Shown here piece by piece: positions 3,926-62,897 of a DNA stretch of 64,000 bases. Each line of letters begins with the position of its first letter. Positions within the stretch are counted from its first letter, which is position 1. Source of the stretch: an uncultured Clostridia bacterium. GTDB taxonomy: Bacteria > Bacillota > Clostridia > Lachnospirales > CAG-274. The stretch covers positions 1 to 64,000 of the forward strand of contig CANRPW010000010.1 of NCBI GenBank assembly GCA_947632615.1, given 5' to 3'. Below the pieces are notes generated by a model. It had not been told where the DNA came from. It saw only the letters and a list, made by a program, of their open reading frames with translations, and did not search any database. The translations under genes were made by a program, and so were the position numbers.

Positions 3926-4076
3926 CTCGGAAGGTCTTTGGGTCATCTTTAGATGACCCGAAAACCTTCCGAGGGCCGCGGGGCGAGGCGGGGCAGGGAG
4001 CACGTGGGGGAAATGCGGCTCCCAGCGGGAGCCGCATTTCCCCCACGTGCTCCCTGCCCCGCCTCGCCCCGCGGCC
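3926..4076. repeat. Two-part intergenic palindrome with a perfect 50-bp stem
   Basis: The first hairpin, 3926-3973, has 23-base arms with two non-Watson-Crick positions. The second, 3974-4076, has two 50-base arms that are perfect reverse complements around a 3-base loop (4024-4026). The outer end reads GGCCGCGGGG and the left arm is purine-rich. It lies 56 bases after the xpt stop and before yycI. It could act as a terminator for xpt, but the stem is several times longer than intrinsic termination needs, and no U-run follows. Confidence 0.95.
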
Positions 4077-8502: not shown

Positions 8503-9528
8503 TCATCCTTTCACGATAATTTCATAATCCGTTTTATCTATAAGCCTGCCTACAGCCTCAGCGGGCAGCCCTGCTTCCTTCATTTCATTTACGATTTCCT
8601 CTGCTTCATCACAAGCCACAGCCGCAAGAAGGCCTCCCGAGGTCTGGGGGTCAAAAAGAATTTCCTCCATACCAAAGCTCACATTTTCAAAGCGAACATG
8701 CCCCTTGCAGTAATTTCTGTTTTTCTGCGCCGCCCCGGTAAAAAGGTATTCATTGGCATAGTCCAACGCCTCTTTTATATAAGGCACTTTGTCTAAATAA
8801 ACCTCGCAGGAGAGCCTATTTTCGGTCATCTCTCTTAAATGCCCCAAAAAGCCAAAGCCTGTCACGTCCGTACAGGCATTTACCTTGTGCCTTTTAAGTA
8901 TGTCGCAGGCGTATTTATTAAGTGTAGTCATAGACTTTATAGCCTGAGAAAGCGCAGCCTCCGAAGCCTCTCCCACACGGGAGGCAGAGCATACCAGCCC
9001 TACGCCCAACTTTTTTGTGAGTATAAGCACATCTCCCACTGCGCCGCCATTGTTTTTATATATTTTTTTGGGGTCTACAACACCCGTAACGGACAGCCCG
9101 TATTTTATGTCTTTATCTGCAATAGAGTGCCCTCCGGCTATGCTGCCCCCTGCCTCTGTCACCTTATCGGCACCGCCTCGCATTATCTCGCCCAAAATGT
9201 TCAGGTCGCCGTCTTCGGGAAAGCAAACTATGTTAAGGGCAGTCTTTACCTCGCCGCCCATGGCGTAAATATCGCTTAAGGCGTTCGTTGCCGCTATCTG
9301 CCCGAAGGTGTAGGGGTCTTCGACTACAGGGGGAAAAAAGTCTAATGTGTGTATAACAGCACAGCCCTCTGCCACCTTATACACCGCCCCGTCGTCGTGG
9401 CTATTATAGCCCACAATAAGGTTTTCGTCATAAGGGGCTTTCGGCAGTCTTTCAAGCACATGGCTTAAAAGCCCCGCCCCAAGTTTGGCAGTACAGCCGC
9501 CGCTTTTGCAAAACAATTTTTCACTCAT
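8503..9528 (-). CDS. selD: Selenide, water dikinase SelD (Cys form)
   Basis: A 341-residue enzyme that makes selenophosphate from selenide and ATP. The N-terminal catalytic stretch is SGGCTAKLG, with Cys 12 where other SelDs have Sec or Cys, and Lys 15 four positions around it; no UGA is involved. Further family motifs are HTLDFFPPVVEDPYTFGQIA (AIRS N-terminal domain), IAGGHSI and DVTGFGFLGHL. The ribosome site AGGAGG stands 6 bases before ATG. No selA, selB or tRNA-Sec is in the window, so this SelD looks dedicated to the hydroxylase cofactor, as known for orphan SelD loci. Confidence 0.95.
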   Translation of the reverse strand: MSEKLFCKSGGCTAKLGAGLLSHVLERLPKAPYDENLIVGYNSHDDGAVYKVAEGCAVIHTLDFFPPVVEDPYTFGQIAATNALSDIYAMGGEVKTALNIVCFPEDGDLNILGEIMRGGADKVTEAGGSIAGGHSIADKDIKYGLSVTGVVDPKKIYKNNGGAVGDVLILTKKLGVGLVCSASRVGEASEAALSQAIKSMTTLNKYACDILKRHKVNACTDVTGFGFLGHLREMTENRLSCEVYLDKVPYIKEALDYANEYLFTGAAQKNRNYCKGHVRFENVSFGMEEILFDPQTSGGLLAAVACDEAEEIVNEMKEAGLPAEAVGRLIDKTDYEIIVKG

Positions 9529-10780
9529 ACAACCCCTCCTTTAAAGAGCAAGCATAAGCCTTTATACCTCGCTCTTTCAGTATGGTCTTTATTTTCTCTC
9601 CCCTGCTCTTTAGCTCAGCGGTGTCGCATTTATTTATAATGGCATAATATTTTCTGCCGCCAACGTTTTTCATAGCGCCGCTTTCGGAAGAAAGTATGTC
9701 CGCCAGATCCTTTTCGGTGATAATATGCCCCTCGTCCACGTTCAGCAGGGCGCAGACCTTTTCCTTCCTGAAGCAGACCTCGCCTACGGGCTTGTCTAAA
9801 GCATCTATCCCCACGACCCCCAAAACAATGTCGGAAGCTTCCAAAATAACAGGCTCATGCTCCTCGGGTGCTTTGCAGGGCAGCCCTTTTGCGCCGTCCG
9901 CCTCTATAACAGCCGCATCCGCAAGCCCTATACACTCTTCAAGCTCCGGGCTTTTTTCAAGCTTGTTTTGGGGAATTTCCCGCCCCATAAGGGCGATTTT
10001 GTGACTTTTCCATATTTCCAAAATGCCGTCTTTGGTGCTTGCCAAAGGCAGATCATCGGGCTTATATATTTTGGTGGTGGTGGCAAGCAGAGTTTTAAAG
10101 CCATAGGAGGCGAAAACCTCGCCTAACTTGTACATAAGTGTAGTTTTCCCGCCGCCGCCAACTATTGATATAATATGTCCTTTTTCTTTTGTAAAGTCAA
10201 ACATACAGGGCACGTCTATGTCTAAAAAATCTCCCCTTTTGTGGGATAATAAGAAATAGACCCTCTCTTTATGCTTTTTTATAAGGCTCTTGCCGCCTCT
10301 GTCTCCCTCTATGTCTAAAAGCTCAGCCTTCATTTCGGGAGAGAAAATACAGGGGTTTGAGGTTGTGCCGTCTTGGTCGACTATACAGCCCATAGCCTTG
10401 CCCGAAGCCATATAGCCCCTCACAAGCCCTACAAGAGTATCCATGCTTATATAGGGCTGGTCGCACACCATAAACATCAGGGCATTTTCGGGCTTTGAAG
10501 CCCGCACCCCCAAATTCACAGAGGCAGATATGCCCTTATGGCTCAGTGGGTTGTGGATGTACTCCACCTCCCCATACCTTTCGCAGATTTTTTTAATTTC
10601 GTCATATTTTGATACCACCGCTATTTTATCTATATATTGGGGGAGCTTCTCCTTAAGCCTTTTTGCATTTTCAAGGGCTATTGTGAAAAGCTCCCTGCCG
10701 TCTATTTTATACAGCAGCTTATTAATGCTCCCAAAGCGGCGGCTGCTGCCTGCGGCGGTGAGTATAATATCAATCTTCAT
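9521..10780 (-). CDS. Fusion: MocA-like nucleotidyltransferase and YqeC
   Basis: A 419-residue fusion. Residues 1 to about 190 are a MobA/MocA-type NTP transferase (LTAAGSSRRFGSINKLL, MVCDQPYISMDTL), the family that adds CMP to molybdopterin for xanthine dehydrogenase-type enzymes. From about residue 200 it is YqeC, with a P-loop (ISIVGGGGKTTLMYKLGE), LATTTKIYKP and EADGAKGLPCKAPEEHEP. YqeC is tied to selenium-dependent hydroxylases; its role is unproven. The fusion implies that cofactor cytidylation and the selenium step are physically coupled. It overlaps selD and the large-subunit gene. Confidence 0.9.
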   Translation of the reverse strand: MKIDIILTAAGSSRRFGSINKLLYKIDGRELFTIALENAKRLKEKLPQYIDKIAVVSKYDEIKKICERYGEVEYIHNPLSHKGISASVNLGVRASKPENALMFMVCDQPYISMDTLVGLVRGYMASGKAMGCIVDQDGTTSNPCIFSPEMKAELLDIEGDRGGKSLIKKHKERVYFLLSHKRGDFLDIDVPCMFDFTKEKGHIISIVGGGGKTTLMYKLGEVFASYGFKTLLATTTKIYKPDDLPLASTKDGILEIWKSHKIALMGREIPQNKLEKSPELEECIGLADAAVIEADGAKGLPCKAPEEHEPVILEASDIVLGVVGIDALDKPVGEVCFRKEKVCALLNVDEGHIITEKDLADILSSESGAMKNVGGRKYYAIINKCDTAELKSRGEKIKTILKERGIKAYACSLKEGLYE

Positions 10781-23679: not shown

Positions 23680-23799
23680 CGATGGGAGAGGCGAGGTGCA
23701 AAACAAAGGGAGACCGCGCTGCGGTCTCCCTTTGTTTTGTACCTCGCCTCTCCCATCGCCCTCGTTATTTAAACCGTCCCTGACGGTTTAAAAACGAGG
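23680..23799. repeat. Two-part intergenic palindrome between convergent genes
   Basis: The long hairpin is 23680-23758: two 38-base arms with one mismatch and a 3-base loop. The short hairpin is 23760-23799 (about 19-base arms, loop CCT). It fills the gap between the ends of pyrG and ctpA. The order is long then short on the plus strand, the reverse of most other copies. It may serve as a bidirectional terminator; a T-run follows neither arm clearly. Confidence 0.93.
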
Positions 23800-28765: not shown

Positions 28766-28906
28766 GCCTCCGCTTAATTTTTGCGCCGCAGGCACAAAAA
28801 TTAAGCGAGGCCGCGGGGCGAGGGCGAAGGACGGGACGTGAAGGGCAGAAAGAACCCGAAGGGCTCTTTCTGCCCTTCACGTCCCGTCCTTCGCCCTCGC
28901 CCCGCG
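28766..28906. repeat. Two-part intergenic palindrome with a 46-bp stem
   Basis: The short hairpin is 28766-28811 (about 18-bp stem with a one-base bulge). The long hairpin is 28812-28906: two 46-base arms with one mismatch and loop GAA. The outer end reads CGCGGGGCGAGG, close to that of the copy at 3974. It lies between the ftsK stop and fhs on the leftward transcripts. Confidence 0.94.
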
Positions 28907-32360: not shown

Positions 32361-32487
32361 CCCCCTGTCCGCTTACCGCCATAGGCGGATATGCGGACAA
32401 GGGAGCCGCGACCGGGGAGCGAGGCAGGAAGCAAGAGGGAGCGGACGGGTCCGCTCCCTCTTGCTTCCTGCCTCGCTCCCCGGTCGC
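32361..32487. repeat. Two-part intergenic palindrome with a perfect 39-bp stem
   Basis: An imperfect short hairpin (about 32361-32403) is followed by 32408-32487, whose 39-base arms are perfect reverse complements around a 2-base loop. It starts 26 bases after the stop of the P-type-ATPase-like gene and precedes ftsK. Confidence 0.93.
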
Positions 32488-34853: not shown

Positions 34854-34978
34854 CCTTATTTTCAGATAAGCCCCCGGCTTATCTGAAAACAAGGAGCCGC
34901 GGGGCGGGGGAAGCGAAAAGCAGGCGAAGGGGCGGACAAGTCCGCCCCTTCGCCTGCTTTTCGCTTCCCCCGCCCCGC
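34854..34978. repeat. Two-part intergenic palindrome with a perfect 38-bp stem
   Basis: The short hairpin is 34854-34894 (18-base arms, one mismatch). The long hairpin is 34899-34978, with perfect 38-base arms and loop CAAG. The outer end reads GCGGGGCGGGGG. It lies between the TPR gene end and the feo promoter, 49 bases upstream of the -35 element. Confidence 0.95.
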
Positions 34979-43841: not shown

Positions 43842-46800
43842 TTAAGCTTCTGCCTCTGTAGTAGCGTCTTCTGATGCTTCTTCTGTAGTATCTTCAGCTG
43901 CTGCTTCTGTAGCATCTTCTGATACTTCTTCTGTAGCGTCTTCGCTAACTTCTTCGTCAGTTGCTTCTTCTGTAGCTTCTTCTGCTTCTGCTGCTGCCTT
44001 AGCTGCTGCTACTGCTTCTGCATAAACAGGCTGAAGGAGAACTGCTGTTTCAGCTCTTGTGATAACTGATGTTGGGTTAAGGTTGTTGTTAGAACCGTTT
44101 ACAAATCCGTTAGCAACTAAGTAAGCTGCATATGGAACTGCCCAACTTGCTACTTCATCACTGTCGTTGAAGCTGTTAAGTACGCTTGCGCTTGCACTTA
44201 TGTTGTCACCAAGATATTCATGGATCTTAGCAATAAGTACGAACATCTCCTGTCTTGTGATCTTCTGAGTAGGCTTGAATGTTCCGTCGCCATAGCCTGA
44301 AGCGATACCTGCCTGTGTAGCTGCTGCTACGCCATTTGCATAGTATGCTGAAGACTGAACGTCAGAATATCCTGCTACGCCGCTTGTCTCAAGACCAAGA
44401 AGCTTAGAAACGAGTACGCAGAAGTCGCCTCTTGTCATGCCGTTTGTAGGAGCATAGTGAGTATTGTCAACACCGTTGATGATACCGTAAGAAGCAAGTT
44501 CATTGATTGCGCTTTCAGCCCATGCTACGTTTTCAATATCAACGAAACCGGGTGTAGCAACTACCTCTGTAGGAGGATTGATTGTTCCGGGCTTTGTTGA
44601 AGGTGTTGAAGGTGTAGCACTTGGTGTATCTTCCGGCTCGTTAGGTGTAATTGTAGGTGCGTCAGATACTGCTGTTGATCCGCTGTAGCCGCTGCCGGTA
44701 CGATGTGATGAACCGCCGCCGCCACCTGAGCTTGAGCCGCCGCCTGAGCCGCTGCCGCTTGGAGCTGTTGTAGGTGCTTCAGTAGGACCGTCTGTAGGTG
44801 CTTCTGTAGGTGCATCTGTTGGAGCATCTGTAGGTGCATCTGTAGGTGCATCTGTAGGTGCATCTGTTGGTGTGTCTGAAGGTGTTTCTGTTGGAGCATC
44901 TGTAGGTGCATCTGTTGGAGCATCTGTAGGTGCATCTGTAGGTGCATCTGTTGGAGCATCTGTAGGTGCATCTGATGATGTTTCTGTAGGAGCTGCTTCA
45001 ATTGTGATTACGCCCGGTTCGGGTGTAAGTGTGATAGCTTCTGCATTTGCGCCGCCTGCTGCAACAACCATAAGTGTTACATTAACTGTACCTGCTTCTG
45101 CTGCTTTATCTACGTCAAACTCAACTGTTGCTACAGTTGTAGGTTCACCCTTCTTAATTGCTGCATTAAGAGCTGATGTAGCTGCATCTGTAAGTACGAA
45201 TGCTGCCTTAAGCTTGCCTAATGCTGCAGGTGACTTACCTGCTGCGTCTGTGCCGTAAATATCGCCGTCGCCGTTTGCAAGGTCTTCAGCTGTAAGAGCT
45301 GTTGTAATATCTACAGCCTTGCTTACTGTAAGCTGACCGTTATTTAATTCAACTACCTTAAGACCTGTAATTGTGATGCCCTTAGCTGCTGCATTTTCAA
45401 GTATGATACCTATTGTAGCATTGCTAAGATCAGCCGGTGAGTTAACGTCGATGTCAACCTTACCTGACTCGCCTGCCTTAACTGTTGCGTTGTTAGCTCT
45501 GATGCTGCCCTCAGCTACAGGAGCCTGAGTTTCAGGTTCATCTGTCTGTGTATCAGATTCTGATGGTGGTTCTGTAGGCTGTACAGCTGTTCCTTCTGCT
45601 GACCACTTAAGTGACTTAGCATGTCTTACTGAGTTAGATTTCTTCTTAACTGCCATACCGTAAAGAGGACCTGTAGGCTCTACAGTTATAGAATCGCCTT
45701 CAAGAATTGACTCGCCATTGATCTTAAGCTCAGTGATTTCACCTGTATTAGTATCAATTGTTATTGTGAATGAGTTTTCAGTACCGTCGGCATTAATAGC
45801 TGCTGTCTTTGTTCCGGCAAATGCTGTTGAGCCGCTTGTACCTACAAATGAAACTGTATTTGTCTTCTGATCAGTAATTCTGATGTAAAGTGTCTTCTTT
45901 TCGCCTATAAGTCTTATAAGCTCACCGTTACCGCCAATACCGTTAACATCGAATTTACCTGTTACAGTAACCTTGCCTGAGGGCTGTACTGTTGGAACGT
46001 TTGGATTTGCGGTATCAGTGCTTGATGTTCCGTCGAAGTAAAGAATAACGTCATTTGCAGATGCTTCTAAGCCACCGCCGGGTGCTGTTACTTCGCCTGT
46101 CTGAGGTTCAACAGGAACGTCAGATGAGCCTTCGCTTGAGCCTTCGCTTGAGCCTTCAGTTGCTTCTGCTGATGATGCCTCGCTTGAGCTGTCTTCTGCT
46201 GCTGAAGATGCTTCACTTGAGCTGTCTTCTGCTGCTGATGAGCCTTCGCTTGAGCTTTCGTCTGCTGAAGATGCTTCGCTTGAGCTTTCTTCAACTTCTT
46301 CTGCTTCAAATTTAACCTTAGGATTGGATGCATCAATATTTCTTGCTGAACCCTTAGATGTAGTAAACTTGAATACTTTTACGCCTGTAGCTGTTATAGC
46401 CTGTGATGCAGAATATACTGAACCGCCTGCTGTAACGTCAAGTTTAACATTATCGTTTGTTAATGTGAATGTGTATGATAATTCTTCACCGGCTTTAGCA
46501 AGCTGATAAGTACCGTCGCCCTGTTCAGCTATAGGAGCTACTGCTGTAGCAAGAGCTGCTAATGCTGCTGCGCTTGCAGGATTTACAAGCTTTGTTTCTG
46601 TACCGGCTTCTCCTGCTCTGAGAGCTAATGTGTTAGGACTAACTATTCTTAATGAAGCGTCATGGTCACCGTATGTGAAAGCTACAAGATTCCAAGAATT
46701 GTTCCAAGCATACGGATGAACAGTACCTGTGATTGTTACAGGCTTGCCTGCTTCAAGAGCTGCTGCGATAGCTGCCTGTGAATCAGCTGCTACATTAAGA

Positions 46801-49800
46801 TTAAGTTCTGCTGCAAGACCGTCACCTGCACCACTTACTGTATCTTCTGAAGTATCTACGAGCTTCCAAACATTACCGTCGAATGTAACGCTTACAGAGC
46901 CTGTGCCGCCTGTTGCTGAAGCTTCATACTCGGGAGTTACGAATACATCTACGCCATCACCAATGTTGGTGTCGCCTGAATGATCAGGAGTTTCTTCTGA
47001 TGATGGTTCGCTTGAGCTGTCTTCTGCTGCTGATGAGCCTTCGCTTGAGCTTTCATCTGCTGATGATGCTTCGCTTGAGCTGTCTTCTGCTGCTGATGAT
47101 GCTTCGCTTGAGCTTTCATCTGCTGAAGATGGTTCGCTTGAGCTTTCATCTGCTGATGATGCTTCGCTTGAGCTTTCTTCTGCTGCTGATGAGCCTTCGC
47201 TTGAGCTTTCGTCTGCTGAAGATGCTTCGCTTGAGCTTTCTTCAACTGCTTTTGATTCAAATGAAACCTTAGGATCAGATGCATCAATATTTCTTGCTGA
47301 ACCCTTAGATGTAGTAAACTTGAATACTTTTACGCCTGTAGCTGTTATATCCTGTGATGCAGAATATACTGAACCGCCTGCTGTAACGTCAAGTTTAACA
47401 TTTGTGCTTGTTAATGTGAATGTGTATGATAATTCTTCACCGGCTTTAGCAAGCTGATAAGTACCGTCGCCCTGTTCAGCTATAGGAGCTACTGCTGTAG
47501 CAAGAGCTGCTAATGCTGCTGCGCTTGCAGGATTTACAAGCTTTGTTTCTGTACCGGCTTCTCCTGCTCTGAGAGCTAATGTGTTAGGTGTAACTATTCT
47601 TAATGAAGCGTCATGGTCACCATATGTGAAAGCTACAAGATTCCAAGAATTGTTCCAAGCATATGGATGAACAGTACCTGTGATAGTTACAGGCTTGCCT
47701 GCTGCAAGAGCTGCTGCGATAGCTGCCTGTGAATCAGCTGTTACATTAAGATTAAGGTCTGCTGCAAGACCGTCATTTGAACCACTTGATGTATCTGCTG
47801 AATCATCTACGAGCTTCCAAACGCCACCTTCGTATGTAATGGTTACCTTACCTGTGCCGCCTGCTGCTGCTTTACCGCCTTCTTGTGAAGCCTGATAATC
47901 AGGAGTTACGTATACGTCTACGCCTTCACCAATGTTGGTGTCGCCTGAATGATCAGGACCTTCTTCTGATGATGGTTCGCTTGAGCTTTCATCTGCTGAT
48001 GATGCTTCGCTTGAGCTGTCTTCTGCTGCTGATGATGCTTCACTTGAGCTGTCTTCTGCTGATGATGGTTCGCTTGAGCTTTCATCTGCTGATGATGCTT
48101 CGCTTGAGCTTTCGTCTGCTGATGATGCTTCGCTTGAGCTTTCGTCTGCTGATGATGCTTCACTTGAGCTTTCGTCTGCTGATGATGCTTCGCTTGAGCT
48201 TTCATCTGATGATGCTTCGCTTGAGCTTTCGTCTGATGATGCCTCGCTTGAGCTTTCATCTGATGATGCTTCACTTGAGCTTTCATCTTCACCTACAGTT
48301 TCAACAGAATCGTTGAGTGAATATGTTACATCACCGGTTGAAAGTTTAGAACTGATTGTTACACTCTTAACACCAAAGTTACTATAAGCAGTAATTGAAC
48401 CTGTTACAGTATCTTCTGCTGTGTTCTTTGTGTTCTTAAGCTGAACACTGTAAGTGTTATCATTGTTAATCTTTATAATAACTTCGTTATCTTGTCCATC
48501 TTCCCAATGGATTTTATTTTCCAATTGTCCATTTATAAGAAGTGCTCTGTCGTTTTGGCCACCTAATTTAAGAGGCTGACTATCCAGTGAAGGACCTGCA
48601 ATAGAAATTGCTGCTGCAAGTGCCGGTGCCACTGTATTAGGATTGATAACTATGAAATCAGTATCAGTTACTTCTTTATCCGGTTTCTTAGTATTTACAT
48701 GAAGAGTAATAGTAACTGATTTAACATTACCGGGCTCGCTACCAAACTTACCAACAGATGTGGGAAGCTTGATTTCCTTTGCCTGACCATCAGGTATTGT
48801 GCCGCTTGTTTCTTCGCTGAGATCGAGTGTTGTATCTTCAGCGCCGGCTTCTGATGTTCCCTCGTTTGAGCTGTCTTCTGCTGATGATGCTTCACTTGAG
48901 CTTTCATCTGATGATGCTTCGCTTGAGCTTTCATCTGATGATGCCTCGCTTGAGCTTTCATCTGATGATGCTTCACTTGAGCTTTCGTCTGATGATGCTT
49001 CACTTGAGCTCTCATCTGATGATGCTTCGCTTGAGCTTTCATCTGATGATGCTTCGCTTGAGCTTTCGTCTGATGATGCTTCGCTTGAGCTTTCGTCTGA
49101 TGATGCTTCGCTTGAGCTCTCATCTGATGATGCTTCACTTGAGCTCTCATCTGATGATGACTCATCTGCATCTTTTGTATAAACCTTGCCGCTTACCTTA
49201 AGCTGAGTGCCTGATGTAAAGCAACCGGCATTGTCTTTTGTATAGAATTTAACACCAAGTACATTATCTAATCCTGTTGCAACAAGCTCAGCTTCAGAAC
49301 CGTCGTTAACAGAATATGTAATCTTATCATTGGTTATAGAAAATTCAACTTTATTATCACCAACTTTTAACTGACCACCGGTTGTATTACCGTCAGCATC
49401 TGTGGTTGTAACTTTAGAAGTTGAAAGTTCTGATTTTCCGGGTTCCGGCTGCTTTTCATTATCATAATGTCTTAATGAAAGAACAGTTGCGGTATTCGGA
49501 AGTGAAGTCAAATTAAATGAAGCTGTTACAACAACTTTATTATTTGCACCAATGCTTTCCTGTGTAAAGTCCACATTTTTATTGTTGTCTTCAGCTACAT
49601 CCATAGGAACCTCAGATATAGTCTTTGATTCGCTATATCCTTCAGTATCAATTGCGATAGGAGCAATACCGCTTATCATTGCCATAGGAATTTCAGGAGC
49701 TGCCGTTAAAATAACTGCTTCAAGAGGAGTTACCTCTTCTTCAGCTGCAGCCGGCTCTGCCTCTGTCTCCTCAACAGCTTCGGCCTCAGCTTCTGTGACA

Positions 49801-49937
49801 TCTTCTTCCACAGCTTCTTCGACAACCTCTGTGTCAAGTGCTTCTTCATCGGCAAATACGTTAGTTACTACAAGTGAGGAAACCGCCATTGTTACAGCCA
49901 ATGCAGCCGCAACAATTTTGCGTGCCTTAAATTTCAT
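43842..49937 (-). CDS. Giant repetitive SLH-anchored surface protein
   Basis: A 2031-residue exported protein. Residues 1-30 are a signal peptide (KIVAAALAVTMAVSSLVVTNVFA). Then come beta-rich modules separated by acidic Ser-rich linkers: module 1 (about 60-255), Ser linker (257-357), module 2 (370-545), Ser linker (550-660), two near-identical modules (about 661-900 and 983-1215), Ser linkers, a LamG-like module (1300-1460), a cohesin-like domain (about 1476-1640), a PTDAP linker (1647-1725), a Gly/Ser stretch, three SLH motifs (1797-1980) and a Glu-rich tail. SLH binds pyruvylated wall polymer, so it sits in the S-layer or on the wall. AAGGAGG precedes the ATG. It is strongly biased to GCT and TCT codons. 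Confidence 0.88.
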   Translation of the reverse strand: MKFKARKIVAAALAVTMAVSSLVVTNVFADEEALDTEVVEEAVEEDVTEAEAEAVEETEAEPAAAEEEVTPLEAVILTAAPEIPMAMISGIAPIAIDTEGYSESKTISEVPMDVAEDNNKNVDFTQESIGANNKVVVTASFNLTSLPNTATVLSLRHYDNEKQPEPGKSELSTSKVTTTDADGNTTGGQLKVGDNKVEFSITNDKITYSVNDGSEAELVATGLDNVLGVKFYTKDNAGCFTSGTQLKVSGKVYTKDADESSSDESSSEASSDESSSEASSDESSSEASSDESSSEASSDESSSEASSDESSSEASSDESSSEASSDESSSEASSDESSSEASSDESSSEASSAEDSSNEGTSEAGAEDTTLDLSEETSGTIPDGQAKEIKLPTSVGKFGSEPGNVKSVTITLHVNTKKPDKEVTDTDFIVINPNTVAPALAAAISIAGPSLDSQPLKLGGQNDRALLINGQLENKIHWEDGQDNEVIIKINNDNTYSVQLKNTKNTAEDTVTGSITAYSNFGVKSVTISSKLSTGDVTYSLNDSVETVGEDESSSEASSDESSSEASSDESSSEASSDESSSEASSADESSSEASSADESSSEASSADESSSEASSADESSSEPSSAEDSSSEASSAAEDSSSEASSADESSSEPSSEEGPDHSGDTNIGEGVDVYVTPDYQASQEGGKAAAGGTGKVTITYEGGVWKLVDDSADTSSGSNDGLAADLNLNVTADSQAAIAAALAAGKPVTITGTVHPYAWNNSWNLVAFTYGDHDASLRIVTPNTLALRAGEAGTETKLVNPASAAALAALATAVAPIAEQGDGTYQLAKAGEELSYTFTLTSTNVKLDVTAGGSVYSASQDITATGVKVFKFTTSKGSARNIDASDPKVSFESKAVEESSSEASSADESSSEGSSAAEESSSEASSADESSSEPSSADESSSEASSAAEDSSSEASSADESSSEGSSAAEDSSSEPSSEETPDHSGDTNIGDGVDVFVTPEYEASATGGTGSVSVTFDGNVWKLVDTSEDTVSGAGDGLAAELNLNVAADSQAAIAAALEAGKPVTITGTVHPYAWNNSWNLVAFTYGDHDASLRIVSPNTLALRAGEAGTETKLVNPASAAALAALATAVAPIAEQGDGTYQLAKAGEELSYTFTLTNDNVKLDVTAGGSVYSASQAITATGVKVFKFTTSKGSARNIDASNPKVKFEAEEVEESSSEASSADESSSEGSSAAEDSSSEASSAAEDSSSEASSAEATEGSSEGSSEGSSDVPVEPQTGEVTAPGGGLEASANDVILYFDGTSSTDTANPNVPTVQPSGKVTVTGKFDVNGIGGNGELIRLIGEKKTLYIRITDQKTNTVSFVGTSGSTAFAGTKTAAINADGTENSFTITIDTNTGEITELKINGESILEGDSITVEPTGPLYGMAVKKKSNSVRHAKSLKWSAEGTAVQPTEPPSESDTQTDEPETQAPVAEGSIRANNATVKAGESGKVDIDVNSPADLSNATIGIILENAAAKGITITGLKVVELNNGQLTVSKAVDITTALTAEDLANGDGDIYGTDAAGKSPAALGKLKAAFVLTDAATSALNAAIKKGEPTTVATVEFDVDKAAEAGTVNVTLMVVAAGGANAEAITLTPEPGVITIEAAPTETSSDAPTDAPTDAPTDAPTDAPTDAPTDAPTETPSDTPTDAPTDAPTDAPTDAPTDAPTEAPTDGPTEAPTTAPSGSGSGGGSSSGGGGGSSHRTGSGYSGSTAVSDAPTITPNEPEDTPSATPSTPSTKPGTINPPTEVVATPGFVDIENVAWAESAINELASYGIINGVDNTHYAPTNGMTRGDFCVLVSKLLGLETSGVAGYSDVQSSAYYANGVAAATQAGIASGYGDGTFKPTQKITRQEMFVLIAKIHEYLGDNISASASVLNSFNDSDEVASWAVPYAAYLVANGFVNGSNNNLNPTSVITRAETAVLLQPVYAEAVAAAKAAAEAEEATEEATDEEVSEDATEEVSEDATEAAAEDTTEEASEDATTEAEA
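44770..44990 (-). repeat. PTDAP tandem repeat in the surface protein
   Basis: A 12-base unit encodes Pro-Thr-Asp-Ala repeated many times with a few Thr/Glu/Gly/Ser substitutions (residues about 1647-1723). This Pro/Thr spacer resembles linkers in cellulosome and S-layer proteins. Silent third-base variation shows it is not a fresh expansion. Confidence 0.9.
46110..46310 (-). repeat. Ser/Glu-rich minisatellite, block 4
   Basis: Encodes repeats of the type ESSSEASSA with Ala-Glu-Asp variants (residues about 1210-1277) joining the second duplicated module to the next domain. Confidence 0.85.
46315..46990 (-). repeat. Duplicated module, copy 2
   Basis: About 225 codons that are nearly identical in DNA to 47265-47960 (for example the stretch encoding TVHPYAWNNSWNLVAFTYGD). 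A few differences exist, such as D versus N before VKLDV. It is a recent in-gene duplication. Confidence 0.9.
46990..47255 (-). repeat. Ser/Glu-rich minisatellite, block 3
   Basis: Repeats encoding ESSSEASSAD and variants with Pro or Gly (SSSEPSS, SSSEGSS), between the two duplicated modules. Confidence 0.85.
47265..47960 (-). repeat. Duplicated module, copy 1
   Basis: Partner of 46315-46990. This copy carries a 7-8 residue insertion (SQEGGKAAAGG) near its start that copy 2 lacks, and otherwise differs by scattered bases. Confidence 0.9.
47965..48290 (-). repeat. Ser/Glu-rich minisatellite, block 2
   Basis: Tandem 27- to 30-base units encoding ESSSEASS(A)D. It changes from 27-base units near 48290 to 30-base units with an extra Ala codon. 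Confidence 0.88.
48870..49170 (-). repeat. 27-bp minisatellite encoding about ten SSDESSSEA units
   Basis: About ten near-identical 27-base units encode the nonapeptide SSDESSSEA. Units differ only at silent positions (GCTTCG or GCTTCA, CTTTC or CTCTC). A repeat array like this is expected to change copy number between strains. Confidence 0.93.
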
Positions 49938-50690
49938 TGTTTTTTTCCTCCTTAAATTTTATTTGATCTCCTTATTAAATACGGGCAATTTAAACAAGGC
50001 CCGACCGATCGGACGGAGTGGAAATAATTGTTGGTTTTCTTTTTAGATTTTTTTATTTATATTAAAATTTTTTATCTTTTTTACCCCTAACAATAAAACC
50101 GTCCTTCTGTCTTTTAAAAAAGCCTAAACCCTAAGTAAAAACTTTTTTACAAATATAAAATAAATTCATATTCTTGCCCTATTTAATTCACCCCGTAGAG
50201 ATCATGCCCGTTACGGGCTTTTCCTTTAAGTTATTTTGCTGTTAAAATAAGCTGCCCACCGCTGTCTGAATACAGCATTTACGAAGGTGACTTCTCAGAA
50301 GGTCTTTAAAATAGCGGAAGACCCTCATCAAAAATCTCAAAGCCTTAGTTAAACCTCACACTCCCCATGTCTGCGTATCTCACAGGAAATTTAAGCTTTA
50401 AAGCGAAAGCCTGGCATTAATATGATTTATAAGGCAGTATAAAAAATAAAAATGTCGCTTCGCCGGGCAAAAGCCTTGTTTTCGTAAAACAATGCGATTT
50501 AAAATGTCATGCCTTTTATAGGGCATTAAGGCGTGGCATTGGGGAAGCCTCCCCCAACCGCACGGGTACTTATTTGAGCTGTTCAGCCTACCACCCTCCA
50601 AGGGCTGATTATGGAGAAATATGTAAGCCTATCCTTACATAATATAAGGAAGTGAAAGGATACGTCCCCTTTTTGCGGCGCTTTTTTTAA
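49938..50690. other. Non-coding region, dense in hairpins
   Basis: No credible gene. The first 110 bases are the leader of the surface protein gene. From about 50200 many short stems occur (for example GCCCG/CGGGC near 50208-50220, TTGTTTT/AAAACAA near 50471, TTGGGGA/TCCCCAA near 50539, GTAAG/CTTAC near 50622), and a T-run follows GCGGCGC near 50690 on the plus strand. This is compatible with a structured RNA; I could not match it to RNase P, tmRNA, SRP or 6S RNA. Confidence 0.45.
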
Positions 50691-51320
50691 ACAAACACCT
50701 CTTAAGTAGTTGAAACACGCAGAGAGGCAAGTGTTTAAAATGCGTTTCCGCCCGCCGGAGAAAGCACTTGCAAGGGTCTAAGCAGGGGCTTCATTGAGAG
50801 AAGGCAAAAATCTCACGCCGAAGCGCCTCCTTGCTCCTGCGAATGCAGCCTTAAAAACATAGTGCGCTATATACAAATGATATACATATACGAAAGTCGC
50901 AGTCTCAGCCAAAAATCTTTGGGGTAGGTAATTATTGGTAAATAATTAGAGATTTTCAAATAAACTGCATCTTATCTGCATACTTGCCTAAAGGATTAAC
51001 AGCTGATTTTTTTAGTAAACCCGCCGAGTCACAGAAGGCAGCACATCATTAATAGAGCATTTTGTCTTTAAATACCCTTTCCGAGTACCGTGTACGAGCC
51101 CAAAAGCGTATCGCCGCCCGAATTTTAAACGCCAAAAACCAAATCTTGTGGCAGGAAGACCGACCTTCGGCAAATAAAACCCAAGAAGCAACACAGGGTT
51201 TAAGTTCAGCACAGGTATAAGATGAAAGGCGCTTATTTATAAAACAGGCTACTTTCACCCAATACACTACGATACTACATATACATTATAAAACAAATCA
51301 AATTTAAAATCAACCATTAG
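50691..51320. other. Non-coding region with nested long-range stems
   Basis: GCAAGTG (50727-50733) pairs with CACTTGC (50765-50771). AGGGGCTTC (50784-50792) pairs with GAAGCGCCT (50820-50828) with one mismatch, enclosing TGAGA/TCTCA (50795-50799, 50811-50815). A further nested hairpin, TAATTATT-GGTA-AATAATTA inside AAAATCT/AGATTTT, spans 50911-50956. No frame here looks coding. Confidence 0.5.
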
Positions 51321-51431
51321 TTTTAGTACGATTTGAATAAATTTGAATGGTGTTTTTTGTGGAATTTTAACAAATTTCGGAAGATTGGCGAGGGTGGGAA
51401 AATTTGCCACTGCGGGTCTGGGTGGTGGGGA

Positions 51432-51515
51432 GCCGGGGCTTTGTCAGCGCGGAGGCGCTGACGCGCCCCCGCAGGGGGCGCAGCCGCCCACGATAGGGGC
51501 GGCTAAAGCCCCGGC
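51432..51515. repeat. Cloverleaf palindromic element, copy A
   Basis: An 84-base element: outer stem GCCGGGGCTTT/AAAGCCCCGGC (51432-51442, 51505-51515) enclosing three abutting hairpins, GTCAGCGC/GCGCTGAC, GCGCCCCC/GGGGGCGC and AGCCGCCC/GGGCGGCT. One outer and three inner stems with almost no unpaired joints form an ideal four-way junction. Confidence 0.93.
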
Positions 51516-51603
51516 GCGGAAGAATTGGCACCGCGGGTTCGGGCGGGCGGGAGATGTTCGGGGCGGGGTGGTGGAGTTGGTACGGTGGGGCTGGGCGGCG
51601 GTA

Positions 51604-51689
51604 GCCGGGGCTTTGTCAGCGCCGGAGGCGCTGACGCGCCCCCGCAGGGGGCGCAGCCGCCCACGGATGTGGGCGGCTAAAGCCCCGGC
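51604..51689. repeat. Cloverleaf palindromic element, copy B
   Basis: An 86-base second copy with the same four stems. Outer stem 11 bp (51604-51614 with 51679-51689), then 9 bp, 8 bp and 10 bp hairpins at 51615-51635, 51636-51654 and 51655-51678. All stems are perfect and directly contiguous. It differs from copy A mainly in the loop of the third arm and by one added C in the first. Confidence 0.95.
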
Positions 51690-51740
51690 GCCGTAGGTTC
51701 GCCGACCCAATGACGGGCGCAGTCACCAATTTCAACCAAT

Positions 51741-51775
51741 AAAAAAGCCGTGTGACGGCGTTTCCGTCACACAGC
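51741..51775 (-). terminator. Intrinsic terminator of the cyclophilin gene
   Basis: On the minus strand GTGTGACGG and CCGTCACAC pair around a short loop, followed by six T. It starts 8 bases after the gene's stop. Confidence 0.93.
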
Positions 51776-51782
51776 ATAATAA

Positions 51783-52556
51783 TTAATATTCTTCAACAGT
51801 AATAGAGTTGATTATAACATCCTCCAAAGGCTTGTCGCTGTCGTCAGTTTCCACAGCCGCAATATCATCTACAACCTCCATACCCTCAATAACCTGACCA
51901 AATACAGTATATCCGTTGTCAAGGAAAGGACATCCGCCATTGTTTATATATTCATCCAATACCTCTGTAGGATAAATATCCTTATAATAAACTCCCGAGC
52001 CATCTTCAATTTCCTCGTCCTGCATGCCCTTAGCTTCTTCAAAAGCCTGCTTGTTTTCATCGCCTATATCAGTACACTGTACAATATAGAACTGACTTCC
52101 GTTAGAGTTGGGCTCAGATGAATGAGCCATAGCCAAAGCTCCTCTGAAATGACGAAGTGAAGGGGTAGTTTCCAGCTCAAAGCCATCGCCCCAAATGCTT
52201 TCTCCGCCTGTTCCGTCACCCTTGGGGTCGCCCCCCTGTATCATAAATTCATTTATAACCCTATGGAAGGTAAGTCCGTCATAATAACCGTCCTTAGCAT
52301 GGGTCAAAAAGTTTTCAACAGCCTTAGGCGCATATTCCGGGAAAAATCTCAGTTTGATATCTCCCTTTGAAGTGCTCATAACAGCAATAGTCTCCCCTGC
52401 CTCGGGCTCTTCCAACTGTGGCAGCTCCAAAGCTCCCGATGCTTCGCTTTCATTTTGTCCTTCTGCCGAAGTTTCGTTTTTACCGTTCTGACAAGCTGCA
52501 AGAGAAAAGCAAAGTGTTGCTGCCGCAGCTATAGCCATAATTCTTCTGAATTTCAT
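51783..52556 (-). CDS. Cyclophilin-type peptidyl-prolyl isomerase lipoprotein
   Basis: A 257-residue exported protein. The signal peptide ends in the lipobox SLAAC (Cys 22), so it is anchored to the outer face of the membrane. A Ser/Glu-rich linker precedes the cyclophilin domain (about residues 55-255), with FHRVINEFMIQGGDPKGDGTGG holding the catalytic arginine, and ALAMAHSSEPNSNGSQFYIV. It should catalyse proline isomerisation in folding of secreted proteins. It follows serS by one base. Confidence 0.95.
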   Translation of the reverse strand: MKFRRIMAIAAAATLCFSLAACQNGKNETSAEGQNESEASGALELPQLEEPEAGETIAVMSTSKGDIKLRFFPEYAPKAVENFLTHAKDGYYDGLTFHRVINEFMIQGGDPKGDGTGGESIWGDGFELETTPSLRHFRGALAMAHSSEPNSNGSQFYIVQCTDIGDENKQAFEEAKGMQDEEIEDGSGVYYKDIYPTEVLDEYINNGGCPFLDNGYTVFGQVIEGMEVVDDIAAVETDDSDKPLEDVIINSITVEEY

Positions 52557-57809: not shown

Positions 57810-57919
57810 CGGGTAATTCACCTATGTCAAAGGGCGGAAAAATCCGCCCTTTGACATAGGTGAATTACCCGACCGTCGGGGCGCAGAGAAAAGCATCAAA
57901 GATGCTTTTCCCTGCGCCC
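57810..57919. repeat. Two-part intergenic palindrome with a perfect 29-bp stem
   Basis: A perfect 29-bp hairpin (57810-57838 with 57843-57871, loop AAAA) is followed by a 19-bp hairpin (57879-57897 with 57901-57919, loop AAA, one mismatch). It lies between the pepF stop and pyrE. Unlike most copies its longer arm carries a moderate GC content and its shorter arm has the GGGCGC end. Confidence 0.92.
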
Positions 57920-62764: not shown

Positions 62765-62897
62765 GGCGAGGGAGAGCGGGAAGCAACAAAAAAATGTGCA
62801 AACGGGTTTGCACATTTTTTTGTTGCTTCCCGCTCTCCCTCGCCCCCCCCCGATGGGTCTGCCGTACAAACGATTTTTAATCGTTTGGGAGGCAGGC
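62765..62897. repeat. Two-part intergenic palindrome with a perfect 39-bp stem
   Basis: The long hairpin is 62765-62844: 39-base arms that are perfect reverse complements around 2 bases. A C-run and then an imperfect hairpin (about 62857-62897) follow. It fills the gap between the convergent ends of hflX and the TetM-like gene. The layout of C-run then shorter hairpin matches the first 53 bases of the window. Confidence 0.93.

Follow-up and report, generated by a model that had tools for sequence, protein, structure and literature searches.

The two cloverleaf elements described here are probably dispersed, non-coding and non-autonomous foldback DNA repeats in which shape is kept over sequence and the arms are maintained by template-switch correction. 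They lie in a window of 64,000 nucleotides (the whole stretch of DNA analyzed), belonging to the draft genome of an uncultured Clostridia bacterium, designated G000. Their interpretation rests on three species of one genus, this one and the congeners G024 and G025, all of them represented by draft genomes.

Location and Fold of the Two Copies

Copy A, recognized by folding and by a junction scan, occupies positions 51432..51515 (84 nt), and copy B, recognized by folding and by its identity to A, positions 51604..51689 (86 nt). These coordinates and lengths had been proposed in a previous sequence-only reading, together with an outer stem of 11 bp enclosing three hairpins, and all of this was borne out, with no unpaired base at the junction of either copy. 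In copy A, the outer stem (51432-51442/51505-51515) encloses arm 1 (51443-51462), arm 2 (51463-51481) and arm 3 (51482-51504), with stems of 8, 8 and 8 bp, respectively; in copy B, the outer stem (51604-51614/51679-51689) encloses arm 1 (51615-51635), arm 2 (51636-51654) and arm 3 (51655-51678), with stems of 9, 8 and 10 bp. When folded with RNA parameters, copy A gave −73.4 kcal/mol (z −9.7) and copy B −78.5 kcal/mol (z −8.6), and none of 200 shuffled sequences was as stable in either case. The minus strands gave near-identical folds (−71.2 kcal/mol for A, −78.5 kcal/mol for B), since the two strands of a Watson-Crick palindrome must fold alike.

Copies A and B are 95% identical, run in direct orientation and start 172 bp apart. 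They differ by one base pair in arm 1 and more extensively in arm 3, where not only the loop is different, as had been noticed from the letters, but also the upper pairs, the stems remaining paired. Each cloverleaf, together with its G-rich left flank, forms a unit of about 145 bp, and the two units are direct repeats of each other (51380..51696, plus strand; units 51380-51522 and 51553-51696) with 82% identity over 145 bp. The setting is a G-rich island that has on one side a cyclophilin gene (51783-52556, minus strand, Pfam Pro_isomerase), its 3′ end facing the island, and on the other the long leader of a gene for an SLH-domain (S-layer) protein of 2031 amino acids (43842-49937, minus strand). 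The terminator-like hairpin of the cyclophilin gene 3′ end (51738..51784, minus strand; inverted repeat 51738-51758/51764-51784) is separate from both cloverleaves. A box-like motif read directly at 51702..51723 of the plus strand, GCCGACCCAATGACGGGCGCAG, resembles the CCGCAGTNNGGTCGG box considered below and, judging by that resemblance, probably belongs with it.

Concerning known RNA classes, ARAGORN found no tRNA or tmRNA gene and Rfam 15 gave no match at the gathering score in the window, which agrees with the earlier statement that the elements are not tRNAs; the best sub-threshold Rfam match over the cloverleaves reached 18.7 bits versus a gathering score of 52. Nor do the elements look like intrinsic terminators, as they form a four-way junction and a T run is absent after the outer stem of A and B on either strand.

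A separate observation in this neighborhood is a conserved non-coding sequence of about 1.2 kb upstream of SLH-domain genes, located at about 50070-51340 of the window and at 8642-9944 and 1281-2314 of the G024 stretch L039. It shows 65-66% identity between species, is duplicated before two SLH genes in G024 and has no Rfam match; it is possibly a large leader RNA.

Other Copies and the Constancy of the Junction

The junction scan looked for an outer stem enclosing 2-5 abutting arms. In 857 kb of G000 it returned three four-way junctions, while in shuffled genome sequence it returned none. By blastn, only A and B matched in this genome, and the 47 relatives from the family, the plasmids and the phages searched gave no match; the copies in other genomes came to light through their fold. 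The third G000 copy (C9:9677-9765) has arms unrelated in sequence to those of A and B. The congener G024 is syntenic with G000 at about 80% identity, and at the site orthologous to that of A and B it has two cloverleaves in tandem (L039, 10005-10085 and 10182-10262, 177 bp apart), with arms that differ in sequence from A and B yet are re-paired. A covariance model derived solely from A and B, as the sequence-only reading had suggested, matched this pair with 61.4 and 53.5 bits. The outcome that would have counted against that reading, namely no more copies and uncompensated stem changes, did not occur.

The congener G025 contains at least 15 cloverleaves in 496 kb, a count that is not an unbiased density because several of the stretches were picked for known hits; one 100-kb stretch chosen without a known hit contained two. 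Most G025 copies are of one sequence type, in which GGGCGGC and GCCGCCC enclose three arms, each of about 12 bp. The sampled sequence of G000 and G024 held three and two cloverleaves, respectively, and 222 kb of six other congeners held none. A search of 392 genomes of the order and 399 of the phylum with the model R2 yielded matches in this genus only, among the candidates scored (at most ten) of each genome. The restriction of cloverleaves to the genus is provisional, because no more than ten candidates per genome were scored and because a first, sequence-heavy covariance model missed G025 altogether.

Two other kinds of match were discarded. An exact 19-mer occurred in genome contigs of scattered, unrelated taxa and was taken as chance, as were the matches (at least 120) of the pattern GGGGCTTT...AAAGCCCC in viral contigs; among the matches listed there was no four-way junction. 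Beside the orthologous cyclophilin gene of another congener (G023), two abutting short hairpins (GGCTCCCCTTGAGGGGAGCTGTCAGCGAAGCTGACTGAGAGG) were observed at L043 1440-1490, which we take to resemble repeats common in Firmicutes.

The 20 best-formed copies all have exactly three arms, across unrelated sequences, and 18 of them have 0-1 unpaired bases at the junction (2 and 3 in the rest). Outer stems are mostly of 6-14 bp, element length is 80-114 bp, the arms are perfect or nearly perfect and the loops are tight. When 2-5 arms were allowed, the scan gave no five-way junction and a single three-way one, inside a giant hairpin. This constancy is what speaks for selection of the junction itself. 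It is conceivable, but not likely, that these are genus-specific chromosomal elements selected as a perfect four-way junction that mimics a Holliday junction, with a dedicated process copying the arms and dispersing the element; their sequence would then be free to change, as each arm is copied from its partner. In a related and rather unlikely form of the argument, the cloverleaf would be a Holliday-junction-like target for a recombinase, a resolvase or a chromosome-maintenance protein, so that topology, and not mere foldback, is kept. A candidate protein was not found, the arm number could also be fixed by common descent, and the few copies in G000 and G024, with none in the six other congeners sampled, suggest that the element is not essential in the genus. 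If the junction were nevertheless selected, junction-binding proteins could be probed with these natural elements.

Pairing Is Kept at the Level of DNA

The 20 best-formed copies contain 844 Watson-Crick pairs and only two G-T pairs (2/846). As a control, terminator-like hairpins were found by folding the RNA-sense strand of the same genomes, and in these the share of G-U pairs was 11.5% in G025 and 6.2% in G000. The near absence of G-T pairs, compared with 6-12% of G-U, therefore indicates that the pairing is kept as DNA and not as RNA.

The changes in the stems are two-sided. In a mixed structure alignment, 157 cells had changed on both sides and one on one side only, counts that are inflated because this alignment was fitted to the structure and included both strands of most elements. 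The copies of G025, oriented and aligned without use of the structure, gave 18 two-sided changes and one one-sided change, a result not equaled in any of 500 shuffles, while slid registers of the same alignment gave at most one two-sided change each. Two of these oriented copies, L323:9320-9416 and L323:11915-12011, differ only in two loops, TGC versus GCA, and across the oriented copies the arm-2 loop is always GCA or TGC, which are reverse complements. A genome-wide count of loop inversions is confounded by hairpin orientation and was discarded, and only the comparison of oriented cloverleaves was used.

Template switching between the arms of inverted repeats is documented to invert loops and to homogenize arms (PMC8604942, PMC8794818). 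Homogenized arms and inverted spacers, by which template-switch palindromes are recognized, were both found in the cloverleaves, and their arms are probably kept identical by the same process. The element would fold when single-stranded, as in replication; the polymerase would then template one arm on the other, or invert the loop. Such correction, of the quasipalindrome or template-switch type, would erase mismatches and make new stem sequences perfect in a single step. Arm correction alone leaves the constant number of three arms without explanation, which may reflect descent or junction selection.

It is worth noting that strong covariation is not proof of a functional RNA, since a DNA-level process can yield it. 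An RNA role had been one of the options first proposed, and it can be formulated as a structured transcript or a tandem terminator or insulator located between the cyclophilin and S-layer genes. The fold is very stable, and the copies are intergenic and near gene 3′ ends, those of G025 being placed between convergent genes in 6/15 cases versus 34/176 background intergenes. However, G-U pairs are nearly absent, unlike in the terminator-like hairpins of the same genomes, the two strands fold equally, the cyclophilin gene already possesses a terminator hairpin and an Rfam match is lacking. The RNA role thus appears improbable. As a part of the template-switch reading, a benefit to the host, e.g., transcription insulation at gene ends, would be secondary and is unproven.

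Loss of the nucleases SbcCD or ExoVII was considered as a reason for the persistence of palindromes and rejected, since both G000 and G024 have SbcD and, as regards ExoVII, XseA matches occur in 9/9 congeners, above the cut-off in 8/9. The presence of SbcD and ExoVII is counted against the preferred explanation.

Mobility and the Search for a Mobilizing Enzyme

The preferred reading further supposes that the element spreads among intergenic sites by means of an enzyme supplied in trans. At the site orthologous to the C9 cloverleaf, G024 lacks about 230 bp, and the C9 segment is bounded by the inverted ends GCCGACC...GGTCGGC; insertion in G000 and loss in G024 cannot be told apart from the sequences. 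No clear target-site duplication, which the sequence-only reading had proposed to look for, was read at this one empty site. Dispersed copies, in G025, and presence/absence at orthologous sites, in the case of C9, are both expected of MITEs. Of the three natures initially suggested (cruciform-forming mobile element, recombinase target or RNA), the first is thus the best supported, by further copies, one clean presence/absence difference between two species and compensated stem changes; the RNA is disfavored, and for the recombinase target no linked enzyme was found.

A mobilizing gene was searched for in the Y1 family of transposases, and none was found for the cloverleaves. The three genomes with cloverleaves are also those, out of nine congeners, in which Y1_Tnp genes occur, a coincidence in favor of classical REP/RAYT repeats, or IS200/IS605-derived ones, that a Y1 HUH transposase would move. 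But these genes (L246 and L248 in G000; L247 in G024; L245, L249 and L251 in G025) have the look of ordinary IS200 TnpA; those of G000 and G024 are decayed and interrupted by in-frame stops, and G025 has intact examples. Neither cloverleaves nor long hairpins are placed on both sides of them in the manner of a REP pair. Mobilization of the IS200/RAYT type is therefore unsupported and very unlikely. The failure to find a linked transposase or recombinase, the IS200-type genes being unflanked, and the lack of a clear target-site duplication at the empty site also count against the preferred explanation.

Giant Perfect Hairpins and Associated Boxes

Besides the cloverleaves, 99 hairpins that are perfect or nearly so, their stems 25-51 bp long and mismatched at 0.43% of positions, were counted in 857 kb of G000, and the G024 sample contains 50, one of which is the fold-back of a whole contig considered below. 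Their density in both genomes is about 5-12 per 100 kb. Those of the window are located at 3974-4076, 23680-23758, 28812-28906, 32408-32487, 34899-34978, 57810-57871 and 62765-62844, with stems of 29-50 bp. Loops are mostly of 3-4 nt, sequences are unique, the 5′ arm is usually purine-rich and a terminator-like hairpin often adjoins. In 14 orthologous sites of G000 and G024 that were checked, the hairpin was present in both genomes at 8 and not at 6. In five orthologous pairs (four of the 14 sites plus the hairpin at 3974), the aligned arms differ by 21-36% and are still paired. No giant hairpin was found in the other congeners sampled; the first 100 kb sampled from G025, a genome with cloverleaves, contained none.

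When up to two mismatches are allowed, 25/99 giant hairpins of G000 (e.g., C2:85, C1:20380, C1:11723 and C1:15682) have the CCGCAGTNNGGTCGG box no more than 150 bp away; the box also flanks the C9 cloverleaf. Exact copies number 11 in 857 kb of G000, one in the G024 sample and none in 200 kb of other congeners. We infer that template switching also accounts for the giant hairpins and, because of the shared boxes, the partly shared genomes and the same mode of change, cloverleaves and giant hairpins may be one family.

Several contigs start inside or beside long hairpins, and the whole contig G024:C1 (131,780 bp) is a perfect palindrome of 65,888 bp, most likely an assembly fold-back. Such errors thus occur, but that the cloverleaves are an assembly or chance artefact is extremely unlikely, as separate assemblies share the design at an orthologous site with diverged sequences and shuffled sequence yields no junctions.

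With G-T pairs so scarce and loops cleanly inverted, the cloverleaves offer a natural way to assay how one arm of a DNA hairpin is copied from the other, and the giant hairpins of the same genomes serve for comparison.

Comparison with Known Systems

Palindromic repeats are common in bacteria, and integron attC sites, parvovirus terminal repeats and Streptomyces telomere folds are single-strand-folded DNA read by shape. The cloverleaves differ from these folds in arm numbers and mismatch patterns, and a replication protein or a chromosome end was not seen here. Their stems are almost fully paired, while attC sites are recognized by R boxes, unpaired extrahelical bases and a linked integrase. 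In the open-access literature searched, no counterpart was found of a repeat whose defining feature is a closed four-way junction of DNA and not its sequence. In kind, the cloverleaves are REP/MITE-like palindromic repeats.

Like REPs and REPINs (GTAG- or CGTC-tagged; PMC3733652, PMC3116915, PMC8266576), they are short, intergenic, non-coding palindromes in many copies, either strand of which folds. REPs, however, are single palindromes of 20-40 bp that bear a tag at one end and are associated with TnpA-REP (PMC3733652, PMC3116915, PMC8266576), whereas the cloverleaves are four-way junctions of 80-114 bp, variable in sequence and with no linked TnpA. Bacterial MITEs (PMC2229807, PMC10969869) are likewise small and non-autonomous, and the C9 copy, like them, is a presence/absence difference and lies within inverted ends, GCCGACC/GGTCGGC, that may be comparable to theirs. 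Unlike in MITEs, neither a parent transposase, in the Y1 search, nor a clear target duplication was found, and the core is branched and stays Watson-Crick while its sequence turns over.

Outside bacteria, the perfect coding palindromes of nematomorph mitochondria (PMC6649704) have long arms nearly devoid of mismatches, for which arm conversion or template switching has been proposed; being single hairpins within coding sequence and not dispersed, they are closer to the giant hairpins of G000 and G024 than to the cloverleaf. The hairpin-forming elements of sponge mitochondria and the double-hairpin elements of fungi (PMC2800124) are, like the cloverleaves, conserved in structure, potentially mobile and sometimes multi-hairpin. 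Those elements are mitochondrial and mostly of one or two hairpins, whereas the cloverleaf is a closed four-way junction in bacterial chromosomes.
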